Of a stretch of DNA of 64,000 nucleotides, positions 6,566 to 43,864 are shown piece after piece. Within the stretch, counting starts at the first letter, position 1. Each line of letters starts with the position of its first letter. The notes below the pieces were generated by a model. The model did no database searches. It was given only the letters and a program-made list of their open reading frames with translations, and was not told the origin of the DNA. The DNA comes from Halarcobacter anaerophilus (GTDB taxonomy: Bacteria > Campylobacterota > Campylobacteria > Campylobacterales > Arcobacteraceae). The position numbers and the translations under genes are program-made. Location: positions 1,488,001 to 1,552,000 of the forward strand of contig NZ_CP041070.1 in NCBI RefSeq assembly GCF_006459125.1, in the 5' to 3' direction.

Positions 6566-8095
6566 TTATATATTTTCTCCTGCTATCATACCAAATACCA
6601 AACAATCAGGGATAGAACAACTTCCCAATCTACTTGCTCCGTGAGTTCCTCCTGTTATTTCACCCGCTGCGTATAATCCCGGTATCGGTTCTTTTGTTTT
6701 TGTTGATATAACTTGGGCTTTAGTATTGATTTTTAAACCACCCATTGTATGGTGAAGTTTAGGAACGCCTTTTGTACCGTAAAACGGCGCTTTAGCAATT
6801 TGTACGCCATCTGCTTTATCAACAGGTTTACCAAAGTCAGGATCTTTTCCTGCTTTAACATAATTATTGTATTGTTTAATAGTCTCTTTTAGTTCTTTAA
6901 GCGGAATACCGTATGCTGCCGCTAAATCTTCAATAGTGTTATATTTTTTTACAACACCTGCTTTTAGTGCTTTTTCTGCAAGTTCAGGAATAATATTGTC
7001 AACTGCTGTTTGATCACAAATATTAATAGGATAATTTTTGTTATCGTTTACAAGTTTAAACATCGCAGTAGCTCTTGTACGTCTGTCTGCAAGTTCATTC
7101 ATATATCTTTTACCTGTTTTTGCATTAACGGAAATACCGTATCTAAAAGTAGCATTGATATTAAAGTTTGAGGCTGCTCCGAAACCTTTTTCATCAGGAC
7201 AAGCCCAAGGTCCAAATTGAATCCAAGAAACATGAACCGGAACAGCTCCTACTTCAAATGCTTTTAATAAAGCTCCTGCTGTAGCTCCAGGTTGATTTGT
7301 AGAATCGGCATCATCCGAAATTCTAGGGTCTTGTTGTTTTCTATAGAAAATATCTCTACTAAAACCGCCGCTTGCCATAACTACGCCTTTTTTAGCTTTA
7401 TAATATTTTTCTTTTCCTGTTTTGTTTTCTCTGTCGTCATCTTTTAATTTACTGTCAAATCTATATTTTTCTTTAGCTAAAATACCGACTACACTGCCTG
7501 TGTCATCTAAAATAAATTCCTCGAATTTTGTTCTTCTTTTAATTGTTACGTTAGGCATTTTTTTTAAATAATTAAACATAGGAATTACAATTCCCGAACC
7601 GCTACCGTTTGCCGATAAATATGTTCTTGGAACTGAATGTCCTCCCAAGTGAGAAAGTTTATCATAAAATTTTGCTCCGCATTTTTGCACTAAATTTAGG
7701 GCATCATTACTACGTGTTGCTATAACTTTTAATAGTTCAGGATGATTTATATTTCTTCCTGCTTTCATACTATCTTTCATATATAATTCAACAGAATCTT
7801 GCACCCCTTCAGCTTTTTGTTTGGGACTATGGACAACAGCTAAAAGCCCGCCGTTAATAACGGAGTTACCACCGATACGTCCCATTTTTTCAACTATAAC
7901 AACTTTATTTCCTTTTTCGGCAGAAGTAATTGCAGCAGATAAAGCGGCAAACCCTGAACCGATAATTACAACATCATACTCTTCATCATATTTTACTTTT
8001 TTTGTATCAGCATTTGCAGCTGTACTTCCTAGAGCAATCATTCCGGCCCCAACAGCACCAATTTTAAAAAAATTACGTCTTGAAACATTAGCCAT
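6566..8095 (-). CDS. fccA: Periplasmic FAD-dependent fumarate-reductase-like flavoprotein (FccA-like)
   Basis: Reduces an unsaturated carboxylate in the periplasm. A Tat signal (SRRNFF, then a hydrophobic stretch) is at residues 5-25, which fits export of a folded FAD protein. The dinucleotide motif GSGFAA lies near residue 47, and GGTHGASRLGS near the C-terminus matches the family's substrate and FAD region. The 509-residue form has no hemes; these are on FccB. Family members reduce fumarate, methacrylate or urocanate, and the sequence does not decide the substrate. The C-terminal segment RLGSCSIPD differs from the classical fumarate reductase RLGGNA. Confidence 0.88.
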   Translation of the reverse strand: MANVSRRNFFKIGAVGAGMIALGSTAANADTKKVKYDEEYDVVIIGSGFAALSAAITSAEKGNKVVIVEKMGRIGGNSVINGGLLAVVHSPKQKAEGVQDSVELYMKDSMKAGRNINHPELLKVIATRSNDALNLVQKCGAKFYDKLSHLGGHSVPRTYLSANGSGSGIVIPMFNYLKKMPNVTIKRRTKFEEFILDDTGSVVGILAKEKYRFDSKLKDDDRENKTGKEKYYKAKKGVVMASGGFSRDIFYRKQQDPRISDDADSTNQPGATAGALLKAFEVGAVPVHVSWIQFGPWACPDEKGFGAASNFNINATFRYGISVNAKTGKRYMNELADRRTRATAMFKLVNDNKNYPINICDQTAVDNIIPELAEKALKAGVVKKYNTIEDLAAAYGIPLKELKETIKQYNNYVKAGKDPDFGKPVDKADGVQIAKAPFYGTKGVPKLHHTMGGLKINTKAQVISTKTKEPIPGLYAAGEITGGTHGASRLGSCSIPDCLVFGMIAGENI

Positions 8096-18898: not shown

Positions 18899-18975
18899 TG
18901 GAGCTGGTGAAGGGAGTTGAACCCCCGACCTGCTGATTACAAATCAGCTGCTCTAGCCAACTGAGCTACACCAGC
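18899..18975 (-). tRNA. tRNA-Thr (anticodon TGT)
   Basis: On the minus strand the gene folds as a full cloverleaf: acceptor GCTGGTG/CACCAGC, D-arm AGCTCAGTTGGCTAGAGC, anticodon stem CTGAT/ATCAG around TTTGTAA, T-arm GGGGGTTCAACTCCC, and an encoded CCA. The loop gives anticodon TGT. Confidence 0.95.
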
Positions 18976-19051
18976 ATAAAATTTTAAAATTAAAATAATA
19001 TTTAAATAGGGGAATGATATCTAAACCACCTGACGATTTCAGGTTATTAAA

Positions 19052-19097
19052 TGGTGTCAAGAGAGAGACTTGAACTCTCGACCTCCGGCTTATGAGA
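19052..19097 (-). tRNA. 3' fragment of a CAT-anticodon tRNA; left attachment site of the prophage
   Basis: The minus strand reads anticodon loop CTCATAA, 3' anticodon strand GCCGG, variable loop, T-arm GAGAG/CTCTC, acceptor TCTTGAC, A and CCA. The 5' half (acceptor GTCAAGA, D-arm) is absent: the + strand after 19097 shows no TCTTGAC and the anticodon stem pairing breaks. This is the expected leftover when a phage inserts in a tRNA gene and supplies a new 3' end at the other junction. The tRNA is elongator Met or Ile2. The intact gene should lie right of 64 kb. Confidence 0.82.
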
Positions 19098-19265
19098 CCA
19101 TGGCGACATATTTCGATGGAATTTTATCAAAACAAACTTACAAACAGCTAAAACACGGTAAAGCACTTAATATAGGCACTTCTACACATAAAAAAATAAA
19201 GAAGCACTTACACTTGATTTCACACTTTTTTTCACTAAAACTAGGACTAAAAAGGGAAAATATTT

Positions 19266-19315
19266 GCCGAGTTTTTGCCGACCTAATTAATGGTCGGCAA
19301 AGGCTCGGCTTTTTT
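19266..19315 (+). terminator. Strong terminator just inside the left end of the prophage
   Basis: Nested arms GCCGAG...CTCGGC and TTGCCGACC...GGTCGGCAA make a long GC-rich stem with an AT loop, followed by six T on the + strand. In the excised circular phage it would end transcripts coming through attP from the right end. The gap 19098-19463 otherwise holds only this stem, a palindromic site and an inverted repeat; no gene is convincing. Confidence 0.85.
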
Positions 19316-19326
19316 CGTTGACGAAA
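19313..19326. promoter_or_regulatory. Dispersed palindrome site 1 (candidate parS)
   Basis: TTTCGTTGACGAAA, intergenic, directly after the terminator stem at the left end of the prophage. It belongs to a set of eight matches to TTTCGYYRRCGAAA. Confidence 0.6.
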
Positions 19327-19345
19327 AATAAAAGTCAATTTATAT

Positions 19346-19423
19346 GAGTACCTATTTAGATAAATAATTATTCCTTTGTATGATAATTACATCTTGTTCC
19401 TCCTTAAAACTAAATAGGTGCTC
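19346..19423. repeat. Inverted repeat upstream of the left-end variable gene
   Basis: Arms GAGTACCTATTTAG (19346-19359) and CTAAATAGGTGCTC (19410-19423) match at 13 of 14 positions across a 50-bp AT-rich spacer. It lies 40 bp before the 19464 start. It could be a regulator site or an integrase arm-type site; neither is shown. Confidence 0.5.
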
Positions 19424-19463
19424 TTATAAGTTGATTTAAAAACAACAACTAAAAGGAAATAAG

Positions 19464-20657
19464 ATGACAAAATTAAATATAAAAATGAGAGATACTGAAG
19501 TTTCAGTAGAAACTGATTTTGGTGCAAATGATATTGTAAAACTTATTACTGGGATAGAACAATCAAAAAATATTATTCCAATAGTAACCTTAACTACTGA
19601 AATGACTAAACAAGAAGAAATTTATAGTATTGGTAAAGTTGGAACTAAAGGATTTGGTGTAGCTGCTATTGAAGATACTTATCTTCCAAAAGGATTTAAA
19701 AAGTTAAAAGGCCATGATGATATAGATAGCGATAACTATGGAAATGTTCTTGACAACAATGGCTCTCAATTAGTTTGGATTCCAAGATTTTATTTTAAAT
19801 GGACCAGTAAAAATAAATGTAAAATATCAGATTATCAAAAAGAAGGTTATGCTCTGCATGAAATGTTTTATGATGGTGGTATGCAATTAAGGGGAATATT
19901 TGTAGATAAGTATGAGTGCGGAAATATAGACGGCATATTTGCAAGCAAAGAAGGTATAGAACCTTGTTCTACAAGAGGAAATAATTCTATCACTGATTTA
20001 AAAAATAATCCTTCAGAAACATATGGTGGTCTATACAAAGCTGTAAAAACAAGAGGTCAGAACTACAATCTAACTACACTATTTACTTATAATGGCTTAT
20101 CTATGCTTATGTTTGCAAACAATAATAATTCTCTTGAAAAAATAAAATATCACAACAATCAAAAATGTGGCGTATTTTGGATAGATCCATACAGATATGA
20201 AGTTGCAAGTGGATTTATAAAACTAAATAACAATGATAGTATTTTCAAAGTTATTTCAAAAGATGTAAAAATCAAAGATTTCAAAGATGATAAAGATGCT
20301 TACAATCCAGACTTTTATGATGATATCGATTTAAGTGGTGTAGTTGATGGTGATGATTTTTGGGTTTTCTTGGATGATAAAGTACAGACATTTAGTATGG
20401 AAGATACTAAAAAGACTTGTTTAGGAATACCAAGAGCGGAAGCTTTAAGCAGTGAAAGTAATGATACCTATGCAAATGCTGGAATGTACAGATATCTAAG
20501 AGATGAAATGGCACCGATTGTTGGTACTTGGGGTGACTCGTCTGCTGCTGGTGCTTTTGCCATGAATCTGTACTATAGCCGTACTTACTCGTATTACTAT
20601 GTGGGTGGTCGAGCCTCTTTTAATGTTCCTATGTCGGGAACGAACGACAGTGAGTGA
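19464..20657 (+). CDS. Second DGR target protein, C-type-lectin/FGE-like, variable C-terminus
   Basis: The 397-residue protein is a paralogue of the tail-end target at 58999-60324: both share YGNV, PRFYFK/PKFYFK, VDKYxCGN, PCST, TYGGLY, AVKTRG and a C-terminal RYLRDEMA block. Its residues about 354-383 form the variable repeat, with AGAFAMN and VGGRAS framework and aromatic or Ser residues where the template has Asn. The fold is expected to be the C-type-lectin/formylglycine-enzyme type used by DGR targets. It lies at the left end of the prophage, 40 kb from the reverse transcriptase. It may be an alternative receptor-binding or host-surface protein. Confidence 0.82.
   Translation: MTKLNIKMRDTEVSVETDFGANDIVKLITGIEQSKNIIPIVTLTTEMTKQEEIYSIGKVGTKGFGVAAIEDTYLPKGFKKLKGHDDIDSDNYGNVLDNNGSQLVWIPRFYFKWTSKNKCKISDYQKEGYALHEMFYDGGMQLRGIFVDKYECGNIDGIFASKEGIEPCSTRGNNSITDLKNNPSETYGGLYKAVKTRGQNYNLTTLFTYNGLSMLMFANNNNSLEKIKYHNNQKCGVFWIDPYRYEVASGFIKLNNNDSIFKVISKDVKIKDFKDDKDAYNPDFYDDIDLSGVVDGDDFWVFLDDKVQTFSMEDTKKTCLGIPRAEALSSESNDTYANAGMYRYLRDEMAPIVGTWGDSSAAGAFAMNLYYSRTYSYYYVGGRASFNVPMSGTNDSE
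20523..20611 (+). repeat. DGR variable repeat 2 (VR2)
   Basis: Aligned without gaps to template 60808-60896 (89 bp). I count 13 mismatches: 12 at template adenines (for example AAC to TAC, AAT to TAT, AAT to GCT) and one T-to-G at 20540. Adenine-restricted change is the hallmark of mutagenic retrohoming. Confidence 0.9.
20641..20656 (+). promoter_or_regulatory. Conserved element after VR2 (candidate mutagenic-homing initiation signal)
   Basis: CGAACGACAGTGAGTG lies 29 bp after VR2 and recurs with one change 20 bp after VR1, but is absent after the template. Here it is coding; after VR1 it is past the stop codon, so its conservation is at DNA level. A short GTTCC/GGAAC hairpin precedes it. 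Confidence 0.6.
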
Positions 20658-20687
20658 AATACTATATAACATATAAAAGGAACTAAG

Positions 20688-21050
20688 ATGGGTAAAAATG
20701 AAAACCACTTTGATATAAGTGAATTGGATGCAAAAAGATTAGCAGTGAAAAATGCTGCTATTGATGAAGCTTTAGATTTAAGAAATTGTGATGATTTAAC
20801 AGCAGATGATTTTGACAATATAAATACAAAAGCAGTAAGAATTTTACAATATGCGATGTTAAACATAATGAAAGAGTGTAAGTACACTGGAAGCGAATCT
20901 ATTATTCAAGAGAGTGCAAGTGGAAACTTAACTTGTAGATATTCTTTTGTTTCTCTTATGGAAGCTGCATGCGAAGATTTAGATAAGGATTTAGCATGTT
21001 TAACACAATTGAAAAGAAGGAAACAACATGGAAATTATAGTTTATCATAA
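20688..21050 (+). CDS. Hypothetical phage protein of 120 residues
   Basis: Acidic, mostly helical protein with no recognised domain. An AAGGAAC site precedes the ATG and the 3' end overlaps the DHH gene by 23 bp, so it is translated with it. It is the first gene after the left variable protein. Confidence 0.65.
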   Translation: MGKNENHFDISELDAKRLAVKNAAIDEALDLRNCDDLTADDFDNINTKAVRILQYAMLNIMKECKYTGSESIIQESASGNLTCRYSFVSLMEAACEDLDKDLACLTQLKRRKQHGNYSLS

Positions 21051-21948
21051 AAATTGCATGGATGGTTTAGCAAGTGCTTTTATAGCAAAAGATGCTTTAT
21101 TAAAAAAGGCTATTGCACATGAAGAGGATATTTTAACAGTACCTTTACAATATGGAGATGAAGATAAGTTTTTTGAAGATTTGGCTGCATTAATAGAACA
21201 AAGAGAAAAAAAATTAAATGTCTATTTTGTTGATTTTTCATTTAAAAGAGACAATATGACAAAACTTTTAAATATATCTAGTATTGAAAAAGTTACTGTA
21301 ATAGATCATCATAAAACCGCATTTAGTGAATTATGTGATTTAAACTACGACTTTAAAAACTTTGAATTTATTTATGATGAATCAAAATCAGGTGCAGGGC
21401 TTTGTTATGATTACTTTGAATCAAATCTAAATAAAAAGATGTTTGCTTATATTGAAGATAGAGATTTATGGAATTGGAAACTATTAAACTCAAAAGAGAT
21501 AAATGCATATCTTCAAACTTTTATAGAACCAAACGATATTGATTCTTTTAATACAGAGTATGAAAATTTTGACTATAACTATTCACTAGATATAGGAAAA
21601 GCTTTAATCAAAAAACAAGAACAGCAAGTAAAAAGTAAAACTAAAAAAGTAAATACTATCAAAATACAACATGTTGAGTTCAACTATGTAAATGCAACTG
21701 AAAATATATCAGAGATTGGAAATGAAATTTGCAATAAATACCAAACCCCAGCTCTAGTATTTTTTGTAAATGACAAAAAAGAGTATGTTTGCTCTTTAAG
21801 GAGTTTAGATAATTTAGCTGATGTAAGTGAAGTTGCTAAGTCTTTTGGTGGTGGAGGTCATAGAAATGCAGCAGGATTTACACTAAGCAAAGAAGAGTTT
21901 TATACTTTATTTTATAGTGGGTACAAGAATATCCCTAGAAAAACTTAA
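21028..21948 (+). CDS. DHH-family phosphoesterase
   Basis: The 306-residue protein has the DHH superfamily motifs: HKNCMDGLASA (motif I with Asp), VDFSFKRD (II), VIDHHKTA (III) and EDRDLW, plus a DHHA1 tail with GGGGHRNAAGF. Relatives degrade nanoRNA, cyclic dinucleotides or nucleotides. In a phage early region it may recycle short oligonucleotides or remove a signalling dinucleotide; the substrate is not readable. Confidence 0.85.
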   Translation: MEIIVYHKNCMDGLASAFIAKDALLKKAIAHEEDILTVPLQYGDEDKFFEDLAALIEQREKKLNVYFVDFSFKRDNMTKLLNISSIEKVTVIDHHKTAFSELCDLNYDFKNFEFIYDESKSGAGLCYDYFESNLNKKMFAYIEDRDLWNWKLLNSKEINAYLQTFIEPNDIDSFNTEYENFDYNYSLDIGKALIKKQEQQVKSKTKKVNTIKIQHVEFNYVNATENISEIGNEICNKYQTPALVFFVNDKKEYVCSLRSLDNLADVSEVAKSFGGGGHRNAAGFTLSKEEFYTLFYSGYKNIPRKT

Positions 21949-22025
21949 AATCTTAGAAAGGCAACATGATTAATTTTAGGTATCTATTATGCAGTAGATA
22001 AATTTTTAATTGATAAGGATCAATA

Positions 22026-22085
22026 ATGTCAAATAATGAAGAAATAAAATTAACCCTTAAGAATCTGTTCTTTGAGGGGGGGTAA
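22026..22085 (+). CDS. Possible 19-residue leader-type ORF
   Basis: ATG with an AAGGATC site upstream, 19 codons, ending just 2 bp before the next small ORF. It is too short to judge from composition, and could be a leader peptide or chance. Confidence 0.25.
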   Translation: MSNNEEIKLTLKNLFFEGG

Positions 22086-22087
22086 CT

Positions 22088-22210
22088 ATGAGTAAAGAGT
22101 CATTTATACAAATACTACAACATGCTTTAGATAAAGATTTTGTGACAGTTTCAAAGAAGAAAGGTAGATTTATAGTATCTGAGAAAAAGAAAGATAGGGA
22201 AACAAAATGA
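22088..22210 (+). CDS. Small basic phage protein of 40 residues
   Basis: Its ATG is preceded by a long G-run, and its stop overlaps the dUTPase start as ATGA. Lys-rich, with no recognised family. The coupling supports a real gene. Confidence 0.5.
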   Translation: MSKESFIQILQHALDKDFVTVSKKKGRFIVSEKKKDRETK

Positions 22211-22866
22211 TTTTTAAACAAATGGTAGAACTACAAAATGAATTTAATAAAAGAGTACATCCCCAATGGCAAGAACAAAACTACAACTGGATGAGTGCAA
22301 TTATTGTAGAGAGTGGAGAACTTCTTGAAAGTCTTGGCTATAAGTGGTGGAAACATCAAGAACCAGATATGAATAATGTAAAAGTAGAAGCTATTGATTT
22401 ACTTCACTTTTTAATATCTTATCAAATTGAAGTTAATTATCAGCATCCTAAGATTAAAGATTTTAATGAAGCAATAAAATTAACAATTGATAGATTTGAA
22501 AGATGCTTTACAGAGGAAGAGGAAGACAATATTAAAGATGAATCTATTGAAATGCTTGTTAAATCTTTAATCGTATTTTGGGGTTTTGGCAAATTCAATG
22601 CTATGAAAGCAATTTTCAATAGACTAAATATGTCAAATGAAGATATCTACTTAGCATATGTTATTAAAAACTGCCTAAATGAATTTAGACAAAAACATGG
22701 ATATAAAGAGGGAACTTATATAAAAAATTGGAATGGAAAAGAAGACAATAAAGTTGCATATGAGATAGCGGATGAATGGGGTGCAGAAGATTTAACATAT
22801 GAACAATTATATATTGATCTTGAAGCAGCTTATGAAGAAGTAGAAAAGAAGCATAAAATATCATGA
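22207..22866 (+). CDS. Dimeric dUTPase (all-alpha NTP pyrophosphohydrolase)
   Basis: Hydrolyses dUTP to dUMP and PPi, keeping uracil out of phage DNA and feeding dTMP synthesis. Conserved acidic helices IVESGELLESLG and VEAIDLLHF carry the metal-binding Glu and Asp of the MazG/dUTPase-2 superfamily. The 219-residue length fits dimeric dUTPase. It is coupled to its neighbours on both sides by ATGA overlaps. Confidence 0.82.
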   Translation: MIFKQMVELQNEFNKRVHPQWQEQNYNWMSAIIVESGELLESLGYKWWKHQEPDMNNVKVEAIDLLHFLISYQIEVNYQHPKIKDFNEAIKLTIDRFERCFTEEEEDNIKDESIEMLVKSLIVFWGFGKFNAMKAIFNRLNMSNEDIYLAYVIKNCLNEFRQKHGYKEGTYIKNWNGKEDNKVAYEIADEWGAEDLTYEQLYIDLEAAYEEVEKKHKIS

Positions 22867-24404
22867 GTAAAACACCATACCAATTTAAACTAGACTTTGA
22901 CAAAGAACTTATTGTCAATTTATTTGCAGGAGGTGGTGGAACTTCTTGTGGTATAGAAATGGCTTTAGGTGTGAGTCCTGATATTGCTATTAACCATGAC
23001 CCTGAAGCAATTGCACTACACCAGGAGAACCATCCAAAAACATTACACTTTATAAATGATGTATTTGAGATAAACCCTGCAACTGTTGCAATAGGGAGAA
23101 GAATAGGTTTATTATGGTTAAGCCCAGATTGTAAACACTTTTCAAAAGCAAAAGGTGGAAAACCTAAGAGTAAAAAAATACGTTCTCTTGCATGGGTCGG
23201 TATTAAATGGGCAAAAGCTAAAAGACCAAGAGTTGTTATCCTTGAAAACGTTGAGGAGTTTAAAGATTGGGGTCCTATATGTAAAGAGGGAAAACCAATA
23301 GAACATAAAAAAGGTCAAACATTTAAAAAATTTGTTAGAGAGTTTAATCGGCTAGGATATAAAGTAGAATGGAAAGAGTTAAGAGCGTGTGATTATGGAG
23401 CACCTACGATTAGAAAAAGATTTTTTATGATTGCAAGATGTGACGGTGAAGAGATTGTTTGGCCGAAACCTACACATGGAGAAGGCAAAAACCTAAAACC
23501 ATATAGAACAGCAGCAGAGATTATTGACTGGTCTATTCCTTCATACTCAATATTTATGGATAAAGAAGAAGCTAAAAAATATGGAGTTAGACGTCCCCTT
23601 AGTAAAAATACAATGGATAGAATAGGAAAGGGATTTAAAAAATTTGTTCTTGATTCACCGGAGCCTTTTATCGTAAAAAATATGAATAGTAATGTTCCTA
23701 GACCTATAAGTTCACCATTATCTACGATACTAACAGGCAATCATCATTATTTAGCAGTCCCTTATATAGGGAAGGCATATTCTACAAAGAATAATACAGA
23801 TGTTCACCCCGGACATTCTATTCAAGATCCAATTCACACGATCACCGTAAGAAATAATCTTTCACTTATAACACCTTTTATTTCTCAACTTAATAAAAGT
23901 TCTATTGGTTGCAAAATTAACAAACCTATTACAACGATTACGGGAGTAAATAAACACTGTATAGTTGCTCCATTTATAGCAAAACACTACACAGGAGCTA
24001 CAGGCTTTAAAGTAGATGAACCTATGCACACAATCACTACACAAGATCATCATAGTGTTATAGTTGCTTTTATTCATAAATATTACGGTGTTGAAGAACG
24101 ACAAAAAATGACAGATCCCTTGCATACTATTACCACAAAAGATAGATTTGGATTAGTTGAGATTAAAGGAGTTGAATATCAGGTTATGGATATAGGATTT
24201 AGAATGTTAACTCCAAGAGAGCTTTATAGAGGACAAGGTTTCCCGGATAGTTATAAAATCAATTTTTTAAAATCAGACGGTAAACCTCTTCCTAAATCTG
24301 CACAAGTTAGAATGTGTGGAAATAGTGTTCCTCCACCACTTGCAAAGGCTTTAGTTGAAGCAAATTATAAAGTCAAAGTTTTAGAAAAAGTGAAAGTTGC
24401 GTAA
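22863..24404 (+). CDS. DNA (cytosine-5) methyltransferase
   Basis: Modifies cytosine C5 in phage DNA, probably against host restriction. SAM motif FAGGGGTSCG, catalytic loop SPDCKHFSKAKGG (PDC in place of the usual PPC), LENVEEF, the RACDYGAPTIRKRFF block, and C-terminal RELYRGQGFP and CGNSVPPPLA are all present. The middle (about residues 275-435) holds about five short repeats of the TIT/TIL type where the target-recognition domain lies. The 513-residue length is long for the family because of these repeats. Confidence 0.92.
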   Translation: MSKTPYQFKLDFDKELIVNLFAGGGGTSCGIEMALGVSPDIAINHDPEAIALHQENHPKTLHFINDVFEINPATVAIGRRIGLLWLSPDCKHFSKAKGGKPKSKKIRSLAWVGIKWAKAKRPRVVILENVEEFKDWGPICKEGKPIEHKKGQTFKKFVREFNRLGYKVEWKELRACDYGAPTIRKRFFMIARCDGEEIVWPKPTHGEGKNLKPYRTAAEIIDWSIPSYSIFMDKEEAKKYGVRRPLSKNTMDRIGKGFKKFVLDSPEPFIVKNMNSNVPRPISSPLSTILTGNHHYLAVPYIGKAYSTKNNTDVHPGHSIQDPIHTITVRNNLSLITPFISQLNKSSIGCKINKPITTITGVNKHCIVAPFIAKHYTGATGFKVDEPMHTITTQDHHSVIVAFIHKYYGVEERQKMTDPLHTITTKDRFGLVEIKGVEYQVMDIGFRMLTPRELYRGQGFPDSYKINFLKSDGKPLPKSAQVRMCGNSVPPPLAKALVEANYKVKVLEKVKVA

Positions 24405-25733: not shown

Positions 25734-27338
25734 ATGATTACAAAAAGTTCGTTAGATGCATTAAAAGACCAAATAGATATTATAGATGTTATTAGCAATT
25801 CAATAGAGATTAGAAAAGCCGGAGCAAACTTCAAAGCTTGCTGCCCTTTTCATGGAGAAGATACTCCCTCTTTTGTAATTTCGCCAACGAAACAAATATA
25901 TCACTGTTTTGGTTGTGGAGTCGGTGGAGATGCTATCAAGTTTGTACAAGAGTATGATAAGTTAAACTTTCAAGAAGCTGTAGAAAAAATAGCAGATGAT
26001 ATGAACTTCACTCTTGAATATGAGTCAAATACTACCCATACAGACTATAAAGCCACTATGGAAACTATCAATAGCTTTTATGAAGCCAATTTAGTTGATA
26101 AAAAACTTCAGTATTTACTTGACAGAGGAATCACAAAAGAGAGTATAAAAACTTTTGAGATAGGTTATGCCCCAAGAAGTGATGTACAGGTCCAGCTGCT
26201 AAAAGATAATTATCTAAATCTAAATGATGCAATAGAAGCTGGTGTTCTAGCTCAAGACAAAGAAAACATTTATGCAAGACTAAGAGAGAGAATTACATTC
26301 CCTATAAGAAACCATGCAAATAAGCTTATAGGTTTTGGTGGAAGAACTTTAAGACAGTCAGAAGGAATAGCAAAGTATCTAAACTCACCAGATACAAAGC
26401 TTTTTAACAAAAGTAGAAACCTATATGGATTTAATCTAGCAAAAGAGCATATCTACAAAAAAGGCACTATGGTAGTAACAGAGGGATATCTTGATGTAGT
26501 TATGATGCATCAAGCAAATATCAAAACAGCAGTTGCCACTATGGGAACAGCACTAACTCAACAACACATCCCAATAATCAAAAAGTGTAATTGCAGAGTT
26601 TTACTATGCTACGATGGAGACAATGCAGGAAAAACAGCAGCCCACAGAGCAGCAGTGTTACTAAGCCAACATGAAGTTGACGGCGGTGTTATAATCTTTG
26701 AGGACAACCTTGACCCGGCAGATATGGTAAAAGATGGAAAGATAGAACAACTATACGAAATGCTTAAAAACCCTATGCCACTTATAGAGTATGTTTTAAG
26801 ACATATTATAAAAGACTATGATTTAGATAACCCACACAATAAAAACCAAGCTCTAAGTGCATGTATAAGTTATCTTAAAACTATAAATCTTCTAGTTGCA
26901 GAAGAGTACAAAGGTGTACTTTCAAAGCTTTTAAATATAGCATCTCATCATATAACACTGGGCCAAACAACAATAAAAAAAGACTTTACAATACAAAGTT
27001 CAAAAACTGTAAGCAAAGCAGATGAGAAGTTTTTTAAAACAATTATTGAAAAACCTGATTACTTAGATCTATTGTTTGGTAACTTGGATTATGAAGTATA
27101 TGAAAACAACACTGTATTTGAAGATATATTATCTGGTAAAAATAATAGTGATGCTATAAGACCTCTTCTTATTAGAGACGATATCGTTATTTATAACAAA
27201 GAAGATTTCATAAGAGCATGTAAGTTAAAACAAAAAAGTTATCTATCTGAAAAACTAAAACAATTATCTACAAGCTTAGATGATGATGTGTTTGAACAGA
27301 TGGACAAAGTACAAAAAAGATTGAATGAGATTGGATAA
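25734..27338 (+). CDS. DnaG-type DNA primase
   Basis: Makes RNA primers for phage replication. The N-terminal zinc ribbon is C37-x2-H40 ... C58-x2-C61 (CPFHGEDTPSF, YHCFGCG). The RNA-polymerase core has GFGGR, and the TOPRIM catalytic residues are in TEGYLDVVM and CYDGDNAGKTA. The 534-residue length is close to bacterial DnaG. No helicase domain is fused; the helicase is separate at 44962-46227. A palindrome site lies in its zinc-domain coding region. Confidence 0.92.
   Translation: MITKSSLDALKDQIDIIDVISNSIEIRKAGANFKACCPFHGEDTPSFVISPTKQIYHCFGCGVGGDAIKFVQEYDKLNFQEAVEKIADDMNFTLEYESNTTHTDYKATMETINSFYEANLVDKKLQYLLDRGITKESIKTFEIGYAPRSDVQVQLLKDNYLNLNDAIEAGVLAQDKENIYARLRERITFPIRNHANKLIGFGGRTLRQSEGIAKYLNSPDTKLFNKSRNLYGFNLAKEHIYKKGTMVVTEGYLDVVMMHQANIKTAVATMGTALTQQHIPIIKKCNCRVLLCYDGDNAGKTAAHRAAVLLSQHEVDGGVIIFEDNLDPADMVKDGKIEQLYEMLKNPMPLIEYVLRHIIKDYDLDNPHNKNQALSACISYLKTINLLVAEEYKGVLSKLLNIASHHITLGQTTIKKDFTIQSSKTVSKADEKFFKTIIEKPDYLDLLFGNLDYEVYENNTVFEDILSGKNNSDAIRPLLIRDDIVIYNKEDFIRACKLKQKSYLSEKLKQLSTSLDDDVFEQMDKVQKRLNEIG
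25879..25892. promoter_or_regulatory. Dispersed palindrome site 2 (candidate parS)
   Basis: TTTCGCCAACGAAA inside the primase gene, read in frame as tcg-cca-acg, a different frame from most other coding sites. Confidence 0.55.
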
Positions 27339-29416: not shown

Positions 29417-29434
29417 AAATACCCACCTAGTTTC
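29417..29434 (+). promoter_or_regulatory. Phage late-promoter-like element, copy 1
   Basis: AAATACCCACCTAGTTTC, identical to copies at 50461 and 57510. It lies 48 bp before the start of the virion gene at 29483. It is followed by a hairpin in the leader (AAACCTTTTT ... AAAAAGGTTT, about 29439-29478). No sigma-70 -10 box follows at normal spacing. Confidence 0.65.
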
Positions 29435-29482: not shown

Positions 29483-30997
29483 ATGAGTAATTCCAATAGA
29501 TTTAAACTTGACCCAAATATTGTAAATATGGTAAGCCAAAGCAAAGCCACAAATGCTGGGCAAGCTATATCTAAAATGTTTACCGATTTAGGAACAATAG
29601 AAAATCAAAAAGCCAATCAAGAACTAGCACAAGTACAAGCAGATACAAAAAAACTACAGTACCAAAGTGTTGCAGATACTATGTCTGACCAAAAGCTAGC
29701 AAGTGAATATATGCAAAGTGATTCGGCAGATTTAAACACTTGGTTAGAAGACAATAACAAATCATTTAAAACTCCAGAGTGGCAATTAAAAGCACAAACA
29801 ATCAGCGATGGTAAGATGGACAAAGTTTATGATGACAGTTTAGCTGCACATGAAAACTACTTAAAAGAGCAGGGGCTTTATACAAATACTGATGGAACAG
29901 TAAATATCGCAGAGATTAGAAAACAACTTGCAAAGGACCCACAAAATATCTACCTAGCACAAGCCTTTGAGAGAAAATATGGAACCAAACTTAATAAACC
30001 AAGAGAAGAGTTATCTTTACAAGATAAACTAGACTTACAAAAAACTCAATCAGAAATAGATAAAAATAAAGCTCAAGCAGATAAATATAATAGAGATACG
30101 GGTAGTTCCAATAAAGATAAGTTTGTTCAAAACTTAGATTATCTTGTTTTAAAAGGTAAAATAACTCAAGAAAGAGCAGATGATTTAAGACTTCAATATG
30201 CAACAAAAGAAACTCAACCAAACTTGACAGCTCTTGCAAAAGATATTGAAACTGCAAATAGCCAAACAGATGATTTTATTAAATATCTAGGTAATAAGGA
30301 TATCAATAAATACAATCTTTCAACAGCTGATGTAAGAGAGTTTAATCCGGAACAAAAAGCACAAGCTGAAAGATTAGCAAATATTATTATAAGGGCAGAA
30401 AAACCAGCTATGAAAGAAGCCATTGCAAAAGATATGGCTGATTTATCAGTAATGCAGTCTCAATTAAATGATAGTATCAACTATACAATAAGTGCAATAA
30501 ATGAAGGTAGAGATATTAATACTGTAGATAAAGTTCAAAGAGAGTATCTAAATAAATACTTAGGTATGACTGATAATCAACTTGAAACTGCTTTCAGAGA
30601 CAGTAGGTTTCAAAGTGCATCAAACACTCTTTTAAAAGTCATGAGTGGTACTGCTGTAAGTGGTCAAGAGTGGGAAAGATTCAAACAAGCAACAGGAACA
30701 CTATACCAAACAAATGAAACCTTAGTAAACGGTATGCTTAGTATGGTTAGAGACCAAAAAAATAGAATGAGAAGTATGTCAAACTCTATGGGTGGAACGG
30801 CTTTCAATCTTAAATATGGTTCTACATATAGAGATATTTTAGATATGGAACAGACTTTAATAGATTCAAGGGATACAAAAAAAACTGAAGAAGAAGCAGC
30901 TTCTAATCCAATCTATGACCCAAGCAAAAATAACAACACAACAGAACCAACTACTACTCCACAAAATAAACCATCATGGAGAGATTATGCAAATTGA
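29483..30997 (+). CDS. Virion protein, probably internal or injection protein
   Basis: The 504-residue protein is polar, Gln/Asn/Lys-rich and predicted mostly coiled coil, without membrane segments. It is the first gene after a late-promoter-like element and is followed by the giant protein and the portal. This position and composition match internal virion proteins of podoviruses; no specific family is recognised. Its end overlaps the giant gene by 11 bp. Confidence 0.6.
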   Translation: MSNSNRFKLDPNIVNMVSQSKATNAGQAISKMFTDLGTIENQKANQELAQVQADTKKLQYQSVADTMSDQKLASEYMQSDSADLNTWLEDNNKSFKTPEWQLKAQTISDGKMDKVYDDSLAAHENYLKEQGLYTNTDGTVNIAEIRKQLAKDPQNIYLAQAFERKYGTKLNKPREELSLQDKLDLQKTQSEIDKNKAQADKYNRDTGSSNKDKFVQNLDYLVLKGKITQERADDLRLQYATKETQPNLTALAKDIETANSQTDDFIKYLGNKDINKYNLSTADVREFNPEQKAQAERLANIIIRAEKPAMKEAIAKDMADLSVMQSQLNDSINYTISAINEGRDINTVDKVQREYLNKYLGMTDNQLETAFRDSRFQSASNTLLKVMSGTAVSGQEWERFKQATGTLYQTNETLVNGMLSMVRDQKNRMRSMSNSMGGTAFNLKYGSTYRDILDMEQTLIDSRDTKKTEEEAASNPIYDPSKNNNTTEPTTTPQNKPSWRDYAN

Positions 30998-33900
30998 TAT
31001 TTTTAATAACAAAGAGTTTCAAGCTCTTCCCCAAGAAGAAAAACAAACTATAGTCACAAACTATTTCAACAAAGAGTTAGCGGATGACGAATACAAATCT
31101 TTAGCAGACGATAAAAAATCTACTATTTTAAATAACTTTGTAAATAGCCAAATAAATCCTTTAGTTGAAAAAAAGGATGATAAAACTGAAACTGTACAAA
31201 ATGTTGATATCAATATAGAAAACAGTTTGAACAAGGAAGAAGTATTAAACAGAACTATTACTCCACCTGAAAATAATCAAGGTTATCAACAAATAGTAAA
31301 TCAAGACAAACCTTTAGAAACAGATGTTATACCTATCGTTGACAATGTACTAAATAGTGCTGCTGATGATGTTATCAACAGTATAAATCCAAAAGATGAA
31401 ACTCAAAAAGAGAAAAAAGCCACAGAGGTTTTATCTCATATTCAAAATGTACAATTTGCAAACAAAGACTTAGCTGATATGGTAAAAGGTTTTACTGGGG
31501 ATGATGAAGCTTTAAAAAATATCCAAGACAAAGCTTTACAAACAAACAAAGCAGTTGTAGATACGCTTTATTCAATCGGTATTAATGCAATAGTTGATGG
31601 AAACGGTGAAGTAAAGTTCAAAGACGATGATGGAAAATTTAAAACAGTAGGTGATGATTTTTGGGAGAGTCTAAAAGAAGATATCTCAAATAACAAATAT
31701 GAGATAGTAGGAGACATAGCTGGTGGAGCTGCTGGGAACAGACTTACAAAAAAATATCTGGATAGCATATCTTCGGCTGCTAAAATTGGTGGATGGAGAG
31801 GTAAAGTAGCAGAGTTTATCGGAACATTAGGTGGAGCAGCTATAGGAGCTTTTACAGGTCGTGCTGCTGATGTAGAAAATAGTAAAGATGAACTACTTAA
31901 CATGGTAGATGATTTACAAAAAGCTACAAATCTAAAAGAAGTGATAGATCAAAACCCAACATTACAAAAAGCACTTGATGGGGCAAATATGACTATCTAT
32001 GGTACAGCTATTACAAGTGCAGTTGCAGAACCTATTATAAAAGTTGGAGGAAGAGCAATAAGACTTCCTAAACAAGCAAAAGATTATGTAGTAAATGGAA
32101 ATATCAATGGTGCAAGAGATATCCTAAAAAAAGATTTAAAGATAGATGAACAATACATCGATGATGCTCTTAGACAAGCAAAAGAAAACTATCAAGAAGT
32201 AATAGACTACACAAATAATGCAATTACAGGTAAAACAAAACAACAAGAACAATTACTAGCAGCTACACTTGAAAAAGGTGATGCCAATATCATCAAGGGT
32301 GCGATTGCAAAAAATGAAACAGCAGCAAGAAATCTAAGTGATACAATAGATCAACGAACTACTACAATTCAAAAAAATCTTGATAACAACTCTTCAAAGA
32401 TTGGTGGAGAAGAGATTAAAAACTATCTTAATAACTATGAAAGTCAAGTTAAAAGTGATTTTATTGATATGAGAAAATCTTTTTCTGATGCTTTTAAAGA
32501 GACTAATTATAGATTTGATTTAGAAGATTTAAACTTAAACAGTGTTTTCAGAGATATGTCAAAAAGAGTACAGGACCCAGATGCTAAAAAAAGATTCCAA
32601 ACACTTCAAACTTCTATCAAAAATACAATCTATGATAGCAATGCACAAGTAGGAATTGATAGAGATATAAACGGCTTATTAGATTTAAGACAGCAGCTAA
32701 ATAGATTTTATGGCCAAAATGAAAAATATCTAACTAACAAAAAAGATAAAGATGTATTTAATTCACTAAAGGAAAATATAGATAATCAAATCCATAAAGC
32801 GGTAAATGACAATCTTCCAGAAGATGTAGGTACAAGACTACTTGATAGTTTTTCTAAATCTATGCAAGGTTATAGAGAGCTTGGAGCACTTAGTGACAAC
32901 AATGTTTTTAAAGGCATCATGGGAGATGCACAAAGTAGCGAATATAGAATGGATAAACTTATCAAACATATGGCAGATGATGATAGTTATGTTGATGATG
33001 TGTTATCTAAAATGTCACCAAATACTAGACAAACAGTCGAAGTAGCAGTTATAAGAGACATAACAGACTCATTTACAGCAAAAACAGCACAAGGGCAAAA
33101 AGCTATAGCCTTTGAAGATTTAGCCAAAAAACTAGAAGGTATTAAAAGAAATGTCAGAAGTCAACTCGGAAAAGAAACTATTGACAATCTTATAACATAT
33201 GCAGATAAGTTTGGTAACAAAGACTTGTTGTATCTTGATATGGCAAAAGGCATTAAAACAAAACCTAAACACAATATTGCAACAACACTTGAAGGTAAAA
33301 TCAAAATGGAAACTGCAAATATGTTTTTCCAATTTATCCAATCAATCAAACCTGGAGATGATGCAAAAAGATTAGCTCTACAAAGACACATCGCAAGTGC
33401 ATTAGAAAGAAGTAGAACTCCAAAAGAATTTGCAACAAGTGTATATGAATATCCTGAATTAGCTGATGATAGTAAACAAATTCTAAGAGGTCTAATAAAA
33501 GAAAACAATAAAATTCTAAATGCAAAAAATAACGTAGAAGCAGAAAGACTACTAAAAGAAGCAGAACAAGAAAAAAACAGACTATTTCAAATCCAACAAA
33601 AAATAGATGATGAGATAGCAAACTTTACAACTCCTTCAATAGCTGAAATAAGAGCAGTAGAATCTTATACTCCAGATGACAAATACGGTAGTTTCTCTCA
33701 AATGACAGCTAAAATCACAAGAGGAACAGCCACACCAAATGAGATAGAACAATATGTAAAAGCCAAAAACAAAATAGATCCAAAAGTTTTAGAAGCAAAA
33801 GTATTAGAAAATAGATATCCTATCTCAAATGAAGCCATTACAAAACTAGAAGATTTAAAAGCATTTGATAGTAATAAAGTAAATGAAATACTAAATGACA

Positions 33901-36164
33901 ATGAATTTAATAGTCTTATCTATAACCTAAAACAAAACAAACTACCAAACACTACAAAAACAATGGAAGATAAGTTTAGAGACAAATTTTATGAGTTAAA
34001 TAAACTATATGATAATTCAAAAGAGGATATCACTAAAGCTAAAAAAACAAAAGACAATTTAATCTTAGGTGAAAACAGATTAATTGAAAATAATACAGTG
34101 AATAATTATCTTGACAATGATTTTGATATTTATAGACACTTGCCATACAATGATGAAAATTGGGTAAAAGAATTTAATTTAAAATCAAAAGATGATACAG
34201 CAATAGTTAGAGATATTTTAGGAAATGAAGTAAAAATATCTAAAAATGCAGCTGATAAAATTGAAAAAAACAATAGAGAACATTATTTTGGATTAATTAA
34301 GCCAACTGTTGAAAATCCGACAATGATATTAAAACATAAAGATGCGGAAGTATATATAAAAAGGTTTTATGATGAAGAGATGAAAAAATATAGTATCTAT
34401 TCAGTTACAAAAGATTATGGGAATAACGAAGTTTATTTGAGTTCAATAGTTCACAGAAGAGATAATCAGTTAGTAAATAAAATAAGAGAGGGTGAAATAA
34501 CATATTTAAACCACGGCACTGTTGACGGTACTCCATCAAGCCGAGCTACTTCACCAATTCAGAGTACTGAATCTCTCAATGAAAACATTATACCAAATAA
34601 TACAGTAAAAAATCAAGAAATTGAATTACCAAGAGAACTTGTGGATGAAGGTTACACTATTAGTGATATAGGTGAGTTTATTGACCCAGAAGGTAAAGTT
34701 TTATTTTCAAATGCTGGAACTATATTAGCTGGAGGATTTACCGGAGGAAGTGAAACTGCATTTAATCAGCATGATTGGAACGGAGATGGAGAAGTAGACC
34801 AAACAGATATACTATACGGTACTATTGCAGGGGCTATTGGATTAACTACATTTAAAAAGAAGTTCCCAAAGCTTTTTGAAAATGGAAACAATAGTGATGC
34901 AGTCATTGGTTCCTTTGCTGGTAAAGCACCATTAGGGGCAATAGACAATCAAGGCTTTTACTCTACACTTGAAAAAGTAGTGGATGAAAAAGTTGGAGGA
35001 AAGATAGACTCAGTTTCGTTGACGAAAATGTTAGAGAAAAATTCAGTTAAGCAAGATGAACTAGAATGGTCAGGCCTTAAGGATCTTATAGAAAATAATG
35101 AGAAACTTACAAAAGAGCAAATTCAACAAACACTAGATGACAATAGACTTGTTATTGAAAAGCTTGATAATAAAAAAACTAAATATGGAGATTATAAAAT
35201 ATCTGGCGGTGAAAACTACAGAGAGCTACTTTTTAAAACTCCAAAAGTACCGGGTGATTATACTTCTCAACATTGGGATGAATCAAATATCATAACATTT
35301 ACAAGAGTTGATGATAGATCTATTGACAATAAAAAAACTCTTTTCTTAGAAGAGCTTCAAAGTGACTGGCATCAAGCAGGTAGAAAATATGGATATGAAG
35401 ATGATGCAAAGATTGCAGAAGTTGAAAGAAATACTGAAGATATTTTTACTAAATATGATATGAAATTCAATAATGAAATTACAAAAAAAGAACATAACCA
35501 ACTTATCAAAAAAGGTTTATCTGCAGAAGAAAATAATACTTTAAATGAATATATAAAAACAAGTGAAAATCTATTTGATATGGTTCCTGATGCACCTTTC
35601 AAAAAGAACTGGGCAGAGCTAGGGTTTAAAAGAATGATTCAAGAAGCTGTATCAAACGACTATGAAAAAATAGCATGGACAACTGGGCAACAACAGACAA
35701 AGAGGTACTCTCTTGAAAAACAGCTTGATACTATAGTTTACAACAAACAAACAGGTTATATCCAAGGAAGTAAAGCAGGAGATGAAGTAATATTTAAAAA
35801 AGTAGCTTCAGATAAAGAAGTAGAAGGATTATTAGGCAAAGAACTTACTCAAAGACTTATCGACCCTAAAAGCTCTACAAGAGATGAAATCTTTGTTTTA
35901 AAAGGCGATGAACTCAAATTTGGTGGAGATGGAATGAAAGGTTTCTACGACAATATAGTTCCTAATATTGCTAAAAAACTATTTAAAAAATATAAAGTAA
36001 AACCAAAAATGGAAGAATTGGACGATATAGAACAGATGGTATGGAGTATAGATATTACGCCAGCTATGAAAGAAGATATTAAAAAATACGGTCAACCTCT
36101 TTACATGATAGGTGGAACTGTAGTGGGACTTGAAGCATTAAATAATGGAGCTAAAGATGAATGA
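30987..36164 (+). CDS. Giant polyvalent virion protein with BECR-nuclease-like domain
   Basis: The 1725-residue protein is probably injected with the DNA. The start at 30987 is chosen because the longer frame to 30915 overlaps the previous gene heavily. Regions: N-terminal Asp/Glu-rich repeats (LPQEEKQ, SLADDKKS); a Gly/Ala-rich hydrophobic part (about 240-340); a long coiled coil (about 400-1000); a phage Barnase/EndoU/ColicinE5/RelE-like nuclease-type domain (about 1073-1182); an EF-hand-like loop DWNGDGEVDQTD (1263-1274); and a C-terminal domain with FLEELQSDWHQAG and WTTGQQQTKRY (about 1450-1678), typical of large polyvalent phage proteins. Domain calls are by eye. Confidence 0.7.
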   Translation: MQIDIFNNKEFQALPQEEKQTIVTNYFNKELADDEYKSLADDKKSTILNNFVNSQINPLVEKKDDKTETVQNVDINIENSLNKEEVLNRTITPPENNQGYQQIVNQDKPLETDVIPIVDNVLNSAADDVINSINPKDETQKEKKATEVLSHIQNVQFANKDLADMVKGFTGDDEALKNIQDKALQTNKAVVDTLYSIGINAIVDGNGEVKFKDDDGKFKTVGDDFWESLKEDISNNKYEIVGDIAGGAAGNRLTKKYLDSISSAAKIGGWRGKVAEFIGTLGGAAIGAFTGRAADVENSKDELLNMVDDLQKATNLKEVIDQNPTLQKALDGANMTIYGTAITSAVAEPIIKVGGRAIRLPKQAKDYVVNGNINGARDILKKDLKIDEQYIDDALRQAKENYQEVIDYTNNAITGKTKQQEQLLAATLEKGDANIIKGAIAKNETAARNLSDTIDQRTTTIQKNLDNNSSKIGGEEIKNYLNNYESQVKSDFIDMRKSFSDAFKETNYRFDLEDLNLNSVFRDMSKRVQDPDAKKRFQTLQTSIKNTIYDSNAQVGIDRDINGLLDLRQQLNRFYGQNEKYLTNKKDKDVFNSLKENIDNQIHKAVNDNLPEDVGTRLLDSFSKSMQGYRELGALSDNNVFKGIMGDAQSSEYRMDKLIKHMADDDSYVDDVLSKMSPNTRQTVEVAVIRDITDSFTAKTAQGQKAIAFEDLAKKLEGIKRNVRSQLGKETIDNLITYADKFGNKDLLYLDMAKGIKTKPKHNIATTLEGKIKMETANMFFQFIQSIKPGDDAKRLALQRHIASALERSRTPKEFATSVYEYPELADDSKQILRGLIKENNKILNAKNNVEAERLLKEAEQEKNRLFQIQQKIDDEIANFTTPSIAEIRAVESYTPDDKYGSFSQMTAKITRGTATPNEIEQYVKAKNKIDPKVLEAKVLENRYPISNEAITKLEDLKAFDSNKVNEILNDNEFNSLIYNLKQNKLPNTTKTMEDKFRDKFYELNKLYDNSKEDITKAKKTKDNLILGENRLIENNTVNNYLDNDFDIYRHLPYNDENWVKEFNLKSKDDTAIVRDILGNEVKISKNAADKIEKNNREHYFGLIKPTVENPTMILKHKDAEVYIKRFYDEEMKKYSIYSVTKDYGNNEVYLSSIVHRRDNQLVNKIREGEITYLNHGTVDGTPSSRATSPIQSTESLNENIIPNNTVKNQEIELPRELVDEGYTISDIGEFIDPEGKVLFSNAGTILAGGFTGGSETAFNQHDWNGDGEVDQTDILYGTIAGAIGLTTFKKKFPKLFENGNNSDAVIGSFAGKAPLGAIDNQGFYSTLEKVVDEKVGGKIDSVSLTKMLEKNSVKQDELEWSGLKDLIENNEKLTKEQIQQTLDDNRLVIEKLDNKKTKYGDYKISGGENYRELLFKTPKVPGDYTSQHWDESNIITFTRVDDRSIDNKKTLFLEELQSDWHQAGRKYGYEDDAKIAEVERNTEDIFTKYDMKFNNEITKKEHNQLIKKGLSAEENNTLNEYIKTSENLFDMVPDAPFKKNWAELGFKRMIQEAVSNDYEKIAWTTGQQQTKRYSLEKQLDTIVYNKQTGYIQGSKAGDEVIFKKVASDKEVEGLLGKELTQRLIDPKSSTRDEIFVLKGDELKFGGDGMKGFYDNIVPNIAKKLFKKYKVKPKMEELDDIEQMVWSIDITPAMKEDIKKYGQPLYMIGGTVVGLEALNNGAKDE
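35014..35027. promoter_or_regulatory. Dispersed palindrome site 3 (candidate parS)
   Basis: TTTCGTTGACGAAA inside the giant virion gene, read as tcg-ttg-acg-aaa; three codons rare in this AT-rich phage occur together here. Confidence 0.55.
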
Positions 36165-37989: not shown

Positions 37990-38182
37990 TAGCTTCGCTT
38001 ATTTTATTCTTATCAATGAAATTATCTATATATCTACTAAAATGATATAAACCTCTTGATACTTTATTTATATCTTGCAAATCCTTTGGACTAAATTCTT
38101 GTGAAAAGCCTAAACTATTCTTTTCATCTCTTATTTCAAGTCTGATACCGTCAGAAGTTGATCTAGTAGTTATATTAATCAT
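37979..38182 (-). CDS. Hypothetical protein in the parAB operon
   Basis: 67 residues, beta-then-helix prediction, no known family. It overlaps ParB's stop by 1 bp (same strand) and the portal gene's end by 11 bp (convergent). It may be a partition accessory or unrelated. Confidence 0.55.
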   Translation of the reverse strand: MINITTRSTSDGIRLEIRDEKNSLGFSQEFSPKDLQDINKVSRGLYHFSRYIDNFIDKNKISEATKQ

Positions 38183-39294: not shown

Positions 39295-39295
39295 C

Positions 39296-43552: not shown

Positions 43553-43646
43553 AAAATCACCTTGTTAAATTTTTATAAATTATAACATAAAAACAATAAT
43601 TATCCGATAATCCGTAAAAAAACAAGAAAATTATTATATTTTACCA

Positions 43647-43736
43647 TTTACCCAAAATGAGTAAAAGCATTAAATCAATATGAGTATTATTTCTACCCAA
43701 AATGAGTAAATGTTAGATATTCCCAAAATGAGTAAA
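43647..43736. promoter_or_regulatory. Lysogeny switch operators (three copies)
   Basis: Three sites share CCCAAAATGAGTAAA: 43647-43665 (TTTACCCAAAATGAGTAAA, an almost perfect dyad TTTACYCA/TGRGTAAA), 43692-43710 and 43718-43736. Extra half-sites lie at 43639 and 43678. They occupy the 312-bp gap between the CI-like and Cro-like genes, so they are the likely repressor operators. Confidence 0.78.
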
Positions 43737-43864
43737 ACTAAACAGAAGAATACCATTAGATTACACAAAAATAAATATACATTTATTCTTTATTGTATTC
43801 GGATTAACATAATTTTAAGATTTATAAGAGTAAAGTTTCATCATAAAAGTTTTTGGAGTTACAA

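Follow-up and report, generated by a model that had tools for sequence, protein, structure and literature searches.

Two-target phage DGRs are already known, as are distal, non-structural second targets in gut phages. In Quimbyvirus, the open-access text describes a second C-lectin target outside the structural module, judged to be non-structural (PMC8008677) and 'nested within defense-related genes' (PMC8008677, Benler et al. 2021). For four gut prophage species, the accessible text of another report places a distal second VR near counter-defence genes and proposes an arms-race role (PMC12629997, Nature 2025). In Lagaffe_CP and CP11, both VRs are reported to vary among related genomes (PMC11792537), and two targets are also described for Bacuni phages (PMC8143477) and for nd4/nd12 (PMC10743442). 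The VR of Bordetella phage BPP-1 sits in a tail protein (PMC3240598, PMC8144416), and according to the text of Roux et al., viral targets of three clades are mostly tail proteins (PMC8144416). These accounts follow the open-access literature text, in which we found no statement that a second target in an early recombination/replication operon is the rule.

The prophage analyzed here carries one DGR and, far from it, a second target gene. The window (the whole stretch of 64,000 nucleotides that was analyzed, to which coordinates refer) contains the following DGR components.

58999 to 60324, plus strand: main DGR target gene, 441 aa, adjoining the DGR
60200 to 60307, plus strand: VR1, changed at 15 of 27 TR adenines and 0 of 81 other bases
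60356 to 60751, plus strand: Avd accessory protein (Pfam bAvd)
60791 to 60898, plus strand: TR, from repeat comparison with VR1 and VR2
60901 to 62025, plus strand: DGR reverse transcriptase (RT; RVT_1), putative start; the open frame runs from 60748, ahead of TR
19464 to 20657, plus strand: second DGR target gene, 397 aa, an ORF matching the DGR variable protein TaqVP (5vf4) by profile
20522 to 20611, plus strand: VR2, changed at 12 of 25 TR adenines and 1 of 65 other bases

An earlier note on this DNA had claimed a second DGR target 40 kb away, in a paralog of the main target gene, with 13 mismatches to TR of which 12 are at adenines. Our recount, over 90 bp, gives the same numbers. Between VR2 (20522-20611) and TR (60807-60896), 12 mismatches fall on the 25 TR adenines and one (T to G) on the 65 other bases, leaving 64 of 65 non-adenine positions matched. 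The differences are thus nearly confined to TR adenines (12 of 13), the pattern that marks a DGR target; over the same 90 bp, VR1 is changed at 13 of 25 adenines and at none of the 65 other bases. The two target genes are paralogs that share 47% amino acid identity in the part before the VR, where 79 of 154 conserved codons (51%) have the same third base, whereas inside the VR it is the same in 14 of 15 codons, which indicates copying from a shared template and not ordinary divergence. The match between TR and VR2 exceeds both chance and ordinary paralogy. A genome-wide search with TR (E-value threshold 0.001) found three sites, TR, VR1 and VR2, and no further copy. The relation of VR2 to TR is adenine-specific, and judged by sequence VR2 is a genuine second target of the prophage's single DGR.

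RT and Avd are encoded together at 60.3-62.0 kb, in the same prophage as VR2 and about 40 kb from it. A search of the genome with the RT (E-value threshold 0.001) gave one match only, the prophage's own RT, in agreement with the proposal of the earlier note that VR2 is served in trans. The VR1 protein matched 2 of 104 family genomes, its own and G080, in which there are RT matches as well.

The prophage is 47.6 kb long from attL to attR. The right site lies beyond the window, at 66671-66724 in the extended coordinates, where it overlaps the end of an intact tRNA-Met (L004:2676-2752). The integrase gene (L004:1375-2583), also beyond the window, stands just ahead of it. At the left end, the order of features is as follows.

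19047 to 19100, no strand: attL, a 54-bp exact repeat identical to attR
19266 to 19309, plus strand: strong terminator-like hairpin separating attL from the VR2 gene, 18 pairs and a T run
19332 to 19437, plus strand: inverted repeat with 28-nt arms (19332-19359 and 19410-19437) in the VR2 gene leader
20688 to 21050, plus strand: gene of 120 aa directly 3' of the VR2 gene, no PHROG match
21028 to 21948, plus strand: DHH phosphoesterase, RecJ-like (domain/PHROG match)
22207 to 22866, plus strand: dUTPase or NTP pyrophosphohydrolase (domain/PHROG match)
22863 to 24404, plus strand: DNA methyltransferase, type II, cytosine (PHROG; PADLOC matches type II methyltransferases)
25734 to 27338, plus strand: DNA primase (PHROG)

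The VR2 gene starts 0.36 kb inside attL and heads a same-strand block formed by the 120-aa, DHH, dUTPase, methyltransferase and primase genes, with the integrase gene as its neighbor across the att site. Three positional statements of the earlier note hold in this map: the gene stands beside the attachment site, whose perfect 54-bp repeat recurs at the tRNA-Met; it lies outside the tail block; and it comes closer to the DGR in the excised circle, since by coordinate arithmetic the distance from the end of TR to VR2 falls from about 40 kb in the prophage to 5.8 + 1.5 = 7.3 kb. Portal (36.1 kb), capsid (51.5 kb) and DGR (60.3-62.0 kb) are all far from VR2. An Mtd-type target would be found in the tail or late block, which by position is true of the VR1 gene and not of the VR2 gene.

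Adjoining the P22-like portal gene, positions 30915-36164 encode a 1749-aa protein that contains a nuclease domain of the PBECR2 toxin-like kind. Lipid or polyketide-type enzymes appear amid virion genes at 54652-56150, where the late structural block includes a ketosynthase-like gene (Pfam Ketoacyl-synt_C) and, both identified by eye, a small carrier-protein-like gene and an acetyltransferase-like gene of 151 aa that has no Pfam match.

Target recognition by a DGR also involves sequences just past the VR. In the available text of PMC3240598, BPP-1 requires a hairpin after VR, and the loops of phage DGR hairpins are 4 nt long and of the form GRNA. At VR2, the GTGGGTGGTCG core of the IMH is kept and is followed by a hairpin motif of this kind, with a counterpart after VR1.

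20638 to 20657, plus strand: post-VR hairpin motif after VR2, with tandem G-A pairs and a GACA loop of the GRNA type
60325 to 60344, plus strand: post-VR hairpin motif after VR1, with a GATA loop

Allowing up to three mismatches, the motif CGAACGATAGTGAGTG occurs in the 64 kb only at these two sites, against 0.13 expected, and 2 of 100 shuffles reached two sites. A GRNA-loop hairpin motif is found at the same site in VR1 and VR2 of three phages (this phage and two relatives, G130 and G140, described below). It lies about 18-27 nt past the IMH core, is of the type GTGAAC-GATA-GTGAGC, and has two ordinary pairs followed by a tandem G-A step and, in most cases, by more pairs. Among 36 post-VR stretches, two pairs plus the G-A step were seen in 23, near-forms in 2, plain stems at a comparable site in 4 and nothing clear in 7 (including both VRs of the phage record L058), a comparative count in which the motif was defined on the same sequences in which it is counted. 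Inner pairs change in step (C-G/A-T, C-G/G-C, T-A/G-C). The tandem G-A step around a GRNA loop appears in the post-VR stretches of L029, L093 and the window alike, and in some relatives the arms swap sides (GTGAGT/ACGAAC).

Folding of single sequences gave little signal. Shuffles of single sequences reached p < 0.05 in only 7 of the 36 stretches; in the three phages with VR2-type genes, the six sites gave p values of 0.027 to 0.317, two of them below 0.05, and one of three controls downstream of TR reached score 10 by chance. No signal came from DNA folding of the 79 nt that follow VR1, VR2 and TR (z -0.35 to 0.09), and a scan of 14 post-VR stretches for perfect stems of at least 6 pairs found none. 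Since the energy fold of single sequences shows no significant structure, the case for the hairpin rests on conservation, and by that comparison the post-VR element is preserved at VR2.

In order to follow VR2 in other phages, we collected 45 RT-bearing viral records, 40 of them with a TR/VR pair. A VR2-type protein, a class that we assigned from identity and length, was present in 3 of the 45, own included, many of the records being fragments. The two relatives carry it at the following positions.

G130, 3097 to 4131: VR2-type gene, 344 aa
G140, 6706 to 7749, minus strand: VR2-type gene

In a tree built without the VR part (19 rows, midpoint root), the three VR2-type proteins fall on one side of a branch with support 100/100, the G130 protein being flagged for unusual composition. 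At 14 diagnostic sites, chosen because the three TRs are not all alike there and no TR has an A, the VR2s match their own TR at 13, 14 and 14 of 14 sites, and foreign TRs at 2-10 of 14. The one non-adenine mismatch of VR2 in this phage is at a diagnostic site. These sites separate G140 well; this phage and G130 differ at four of them, and both have their own state at all four. Each VR2 thus tracks its own TR, which indicates rewriting from the local template, separately in each of the three lineages. Outside the VR, the orthologs share 58-62% amino acid identity and agree in 50-62% of third bases at conserved residues, as expected under purifying selection.

In both relatives, the genes neighboring the VR2-type gene are those of regulators, of replication or partition proteins, or of an integrase. 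In G130, a CI-like repressor gene on the opposite strand is followed by a small gene (cro by position), a CII-like gene and the VR2 gene, which overlaps the CII-like gene by 8 bp and precedes genes for an O-like initiator and a DnaC-like loader. In G140, the VR2 gene begins 14 bp after a 189-aa gene and lies ahead of a small gene beside the integrase gene (excisionase-like by eye, no PHROG match), with ParA and ParB genes upstream on the same strand (ParA by eye). ParA- and ParB-like genes are present within our integrated prophage as well (38182-39943), a ParB gene thus being found both here and near the G140 VR2 gene. As a sign of circularity, we looked for a terminal repeat of 20-599 bp in the G140 record and found none.

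Wider searches returned few relatives. With TR adenines set to N, the degenerate TR pattern was found in viral_contigs in the own record alone and not in genome_contigs, where in addition none of 69 pattern matches to profile A2 was confirmed. The VR2 protein matched none of 59 other relatives, no plasmid, and 6 of 397 phylum genomes, own included (E-value threshold 10-10). The other five share 34-40% identity in the best piece, have frames of 457-654 aa and more, and on these figures look like the main-target type. Neither the pattern nor the protein searches turned up a second isolate of this phage. Matches among phages were to Campylobacter phages (15 of 17), plus a Helicobacter prophage.

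The VR2 protein has no Pfam match. Its best sequence-profile match is to TaqVP (E-value 10-5), which was also the sole Foldseek match with an E-value below 0.001 (6.5 × 10-4). The identity to TaqVP is 13% and the TM-score low (0.29), for a model of moderate quality that is poor in the VR part. The mean pLDDT of the AlphaFold model is 64, and residues 299-378, most of the VR part, are below 50. The 19-residue hydropathy maximum is 0.88, and a simple hydropathy scan (not SignalP) revealed neither a signal peptide nor a membrane helix, one or the other of which would be expected in a surface protein of the lysogen. PADLOC gave no defence model for the protein. Our tentative reading is that the gene encodes a soluble protein whose variable domain would be a C-type lectin of the FGE type.

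Together, the above observations lead us to propose, with a probability of roughly 0.6, that VR2 is a DGR target in an early, intracellular protein. We infer early expression and a cytoplasmic product from gene order and protein sequence, and our best guess is a variable binder that acts early inside the cell. The mechanism would be as follows. cDNA of TR, made at the DGR, would rewrite VR2 in trans, at a distance of 40 kb or, in the circle, about 7.3 kb. The RT, encoded beside tail genes, would diversify both VRs in replicating genomes, so that every progeny genome would hold its own VR2 variant. With the VR2 gene among the early, non-structural genes of the phage, this variant would be made early in the next infected cell, before the virion genes, and the link between genotype and phenotype would thereby be kept. 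The tail variant would act at the surface of the next cell and the VR2 variant inside the same cell, where it would most likely bind variable host factors, in counter-defence or superinfection control. The ligand and the counter-defence role are guesses, and we put the use in counter-defence at somewhat less than an even chance.

It is also conceivable, but in our judgment unlikely, that VR2 belongs to a second receptor-binding or decoration protein that is carried on the virion even though its gene lies in the early region. The gene is a paralog of the target in the tail block, and the protein weakly matches a 'tail protein' family in a PHROG scan (phrog_5302, E-value 9 × 10-9), through the shared variable-type domain. 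It has about 50 extra N-terminal residues, which are unlike the N terminus of the VR1 protein except for a short ANDIV match. Receptor binding is, moreover, assumed for the comparable second target of nd4/nd12 in the text available (PMC10743442), and is suggested for the Lagaffe pair by the authors of PMC11792537 in its accessible text. The orthologs speak against such a role, as the G130 and G140 proteins (two of the three) start at the variable-type domain, without the N-terminal segment by which tail-type targets would be attached, and their genes stand in early-type operons. Promoter signals point the same way. A 17-bp motif, AATACCCACCTAGTTTC, has three exact copies in the window, at 29418-29434, 50462-50478 and 57511-57527 (against 0.23 expected within three mismatches), and these lie 29-53 bp ahead of genes at 29483, 50531 and 57556. 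It is a candidate late promoter or activator site, and this putative late motif is absent upstream of the VR2 gene. The second receptor-binding protein suggested in the earlier note is weakened by the same three observations.

Somewhat less probable still is a cargo gene beside attL that is expressed in the lysogen and encodes a variable cytoplasmic factor of superinfection immunity. The unit lies directly inside attL, and the VR2 gene is set between a strong terminator and the next genes, behind a leader with an inverted repeat of 28-nt arms. This repeat has a 50-nt loop and an RNA fold z-score of -5.85 relative to shuffles; with one copy in the genome, it is not a dispersed element. Control by the prophage repressor was considered as well.

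42773 to 43552, minus strand: S24 (CI/LexA-type) repressor (domain match)

Upstream of the repressor gene, the operator-like repeat CCCAAAATGAGTAAA occurs in three exact copies (43651, 43696, 43722), besides one degenerate copy within 43640-43740. No CCCAAAATGAGTAAA-like repeat was found near the VR2 leader within three mismatches, so that repressor control of the VR2 gene through such repeats was rejected; a gene that escapes the repressor would suit expression in the lysogen. Promoter hexamers in 18900-22300 were not in excess (21 versus 17.9 in shuffles). In G130, however, the ortholog overlaps the CII-like gene downstream of the CI-like repressor gene, and such a unit is expected to be shut in the lysogen. 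The version of this idea put forward in the earlier note, a surface protein expressed by the lysogen, is disfavored further, as the simple hydropathy scan gave no signal peptide or membrane helix.

Finally, VR2 could be a relic, an old target that is no longer rewritten, for which its one departure from TR outside the adenines, at a diagnostic site, might be cited, but we regard this as very improbable, because 64 of 65 non-adenine TR positions match although the gene has only 47% amino acid identity to the VR1 gene, the hairpin motif is kept, and the tracking of the own TR across three phages argues against it, so that VR2 is no obvious relic.

An early, intracellular target may not be peculiar to this prophage. 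We scanned 22 phage records that we chose among the matches listed (121 and 120 records with RT matches), Brigit over 60,000 of its 61,716 bases. A distal VR (more than 5 kb from TR) was found in nine, Lelie, Toutatis, Lagaffe, Shimadzu, Brigit, nd4, Dulem 34, Magia and MT835491, but 9 of 22 is no frequency, because the records were chosen by us and include phages already known to have two targets. Twelve records have a single VR, and LPPA56 has a near second VR only.

In all nine, genes for recombination, replication or regulators are found no more than 3 kb from the distal target. The order is integrase, three HTH genes, target, exonuclease, RecT and replisome organizer in Brigit; integrase, HTH, target, exonuclease, Gam, ERF and SSB in Lagaffe; and methyltransferases, target, Erf, SSB and DnaC in Shimadzu. 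The distal target of Magia has repressor and Cro on one side and nuclease and RecT on the other. In nd4, methyltransferase and Erf genes are downstream of the target; a methyltransferase and a rep gene are neighbors in Dulem 34; in MT835491, a primase gene is 0.4 kb before and an SSB gene 2.7 kb after; and in Toutatis and Lelie, a replication gene is 2.6 kb downstream, the other neighbors being mostly hypothetical. The rule is not a clean one, for the distal targets of Dulem 34 and Shimadzu also have, at a distance of 1.7-1.9 kb, a gene for a lytic transglycosylase or cell-wall hydrolase. L058, outside the 22, is a further case, with serine integrase, repressor, nuclease and helicase as neighbors (by eye). 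In Burkholderia phage Magia, three VRs derive from a single TR; two of them adjoin the RT, and the third is in a 126-aa gene (L186:4306-4683) annotated with a lectin fold, next to repressor and Cro.

A membrane-length hydrophobic segment was found in none of 13 distal targets; the highest 19-residue mean was 1.18, and the Brigit target reached 1.75 over 11 residues near its N terminus in this crude hydropathy scan. The survey records are not independent, as five distal targets share phrog_9958, a family with no known function (Lelie, Toutatis, Brigit, nd4 and L058, that is records L179, L180, L183, L184 and L058), which MT835491 matches weakly. The targets of Shimadzu and Dulem 34 belong to phrog_21980, and Pfam DUF6273 is common to most members of the two families. 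The Lagaffe distal target is FGE-type, and that of Magia has a weak Lcl_C match below the Pfam cut-off. Four Firmicutes-type early targets match phrog_10993, a Hoc-like head-decoration family. As the distal targets belong to differing protein families, the arrangement seems to have arisen more than once.

As a tentative generalization, early targets of unlike protein families, DUF6273 (phrog_9958, phrog_21980) and FGE-type (Lagaffe, VR2), with the lectin-like protein of Magia perhaps as another, repeatedly stand beside genes for recombination, replication or repressors. It is plausible, though we would not yet bet on it, that in several lineages of temperate phages one DGR diversifies the receptor binder of the virion together with an early cytoplasmic protein, which would encounter variable defence proteins of the host, or proteins of competitors, inside the cell. 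The rule offered, distal targets among early genes, would separate a second surface grip from a variable weapon inside the cell. It suggests that some viruses may diversify a protein used inside the infected cell, besides the one that grips its surface. If so, phages would aim targeted hypermutation at intracellular defences, and the second target would be an intracellular, antibody-like counter-defence effector.

Compared with known systems, the DGR resembles that of BPP-1 (Mtd) in RT, Avd, TR, VR, IMH and GRNA-loop hairpin, with VR1 as the counterpart of the Bordetella phage VR, which was the only one in our scan of BPP-1. It differs in having VR2 outside the tail block and a hairpin motif with tandem G-A mismatches. 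TaqVP of Thermus aquaticus (PDB 5vf4) is the best fold and profile match of the VR2 protein, but at the low identity and TM-score given above. Faecalibacterium phages Lelie, Lagaffe and CP11 and Roseburia phage Shimadzu have two VRs, as here, according to the text available (PMC11792537), and in our scan the distal targets of Lelie, Lagaffe and Shimadzu are near replication or recombination genes; their target families differ (DUF6273, FGE-sulfatase). For the four gut prophage species, the likeness is one of published description (PMC12629997, open-access text). In arrangement, the prophage resembles Quimbyvirus, which in the text consulted likewise has two VRs and a second target near nuclease and DNA methyltransferase genes. 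Here, too, the second VR is far from the RT and outside the structural module, and its neighbors include a nuclease-type gene (DHH/RecJ-like, 21028-21948) and a methyltransferase gene (22863-24404). Quimbyviruses differ, as described there, in being phages of Bacteroides and kin in the gut, and in the place of their target, which lies within a defence-related island and is encoded on the opposite strand. Measured against the literature text available, in which such targets come from gut phages, our prophage indicates that a distal, non-structural second DGR target is present in another phage lineage too; here the target is the first gene inside attL, and a VR2-type clade, kept with its own orthologs and its own cis signals, can be traced through three phages.
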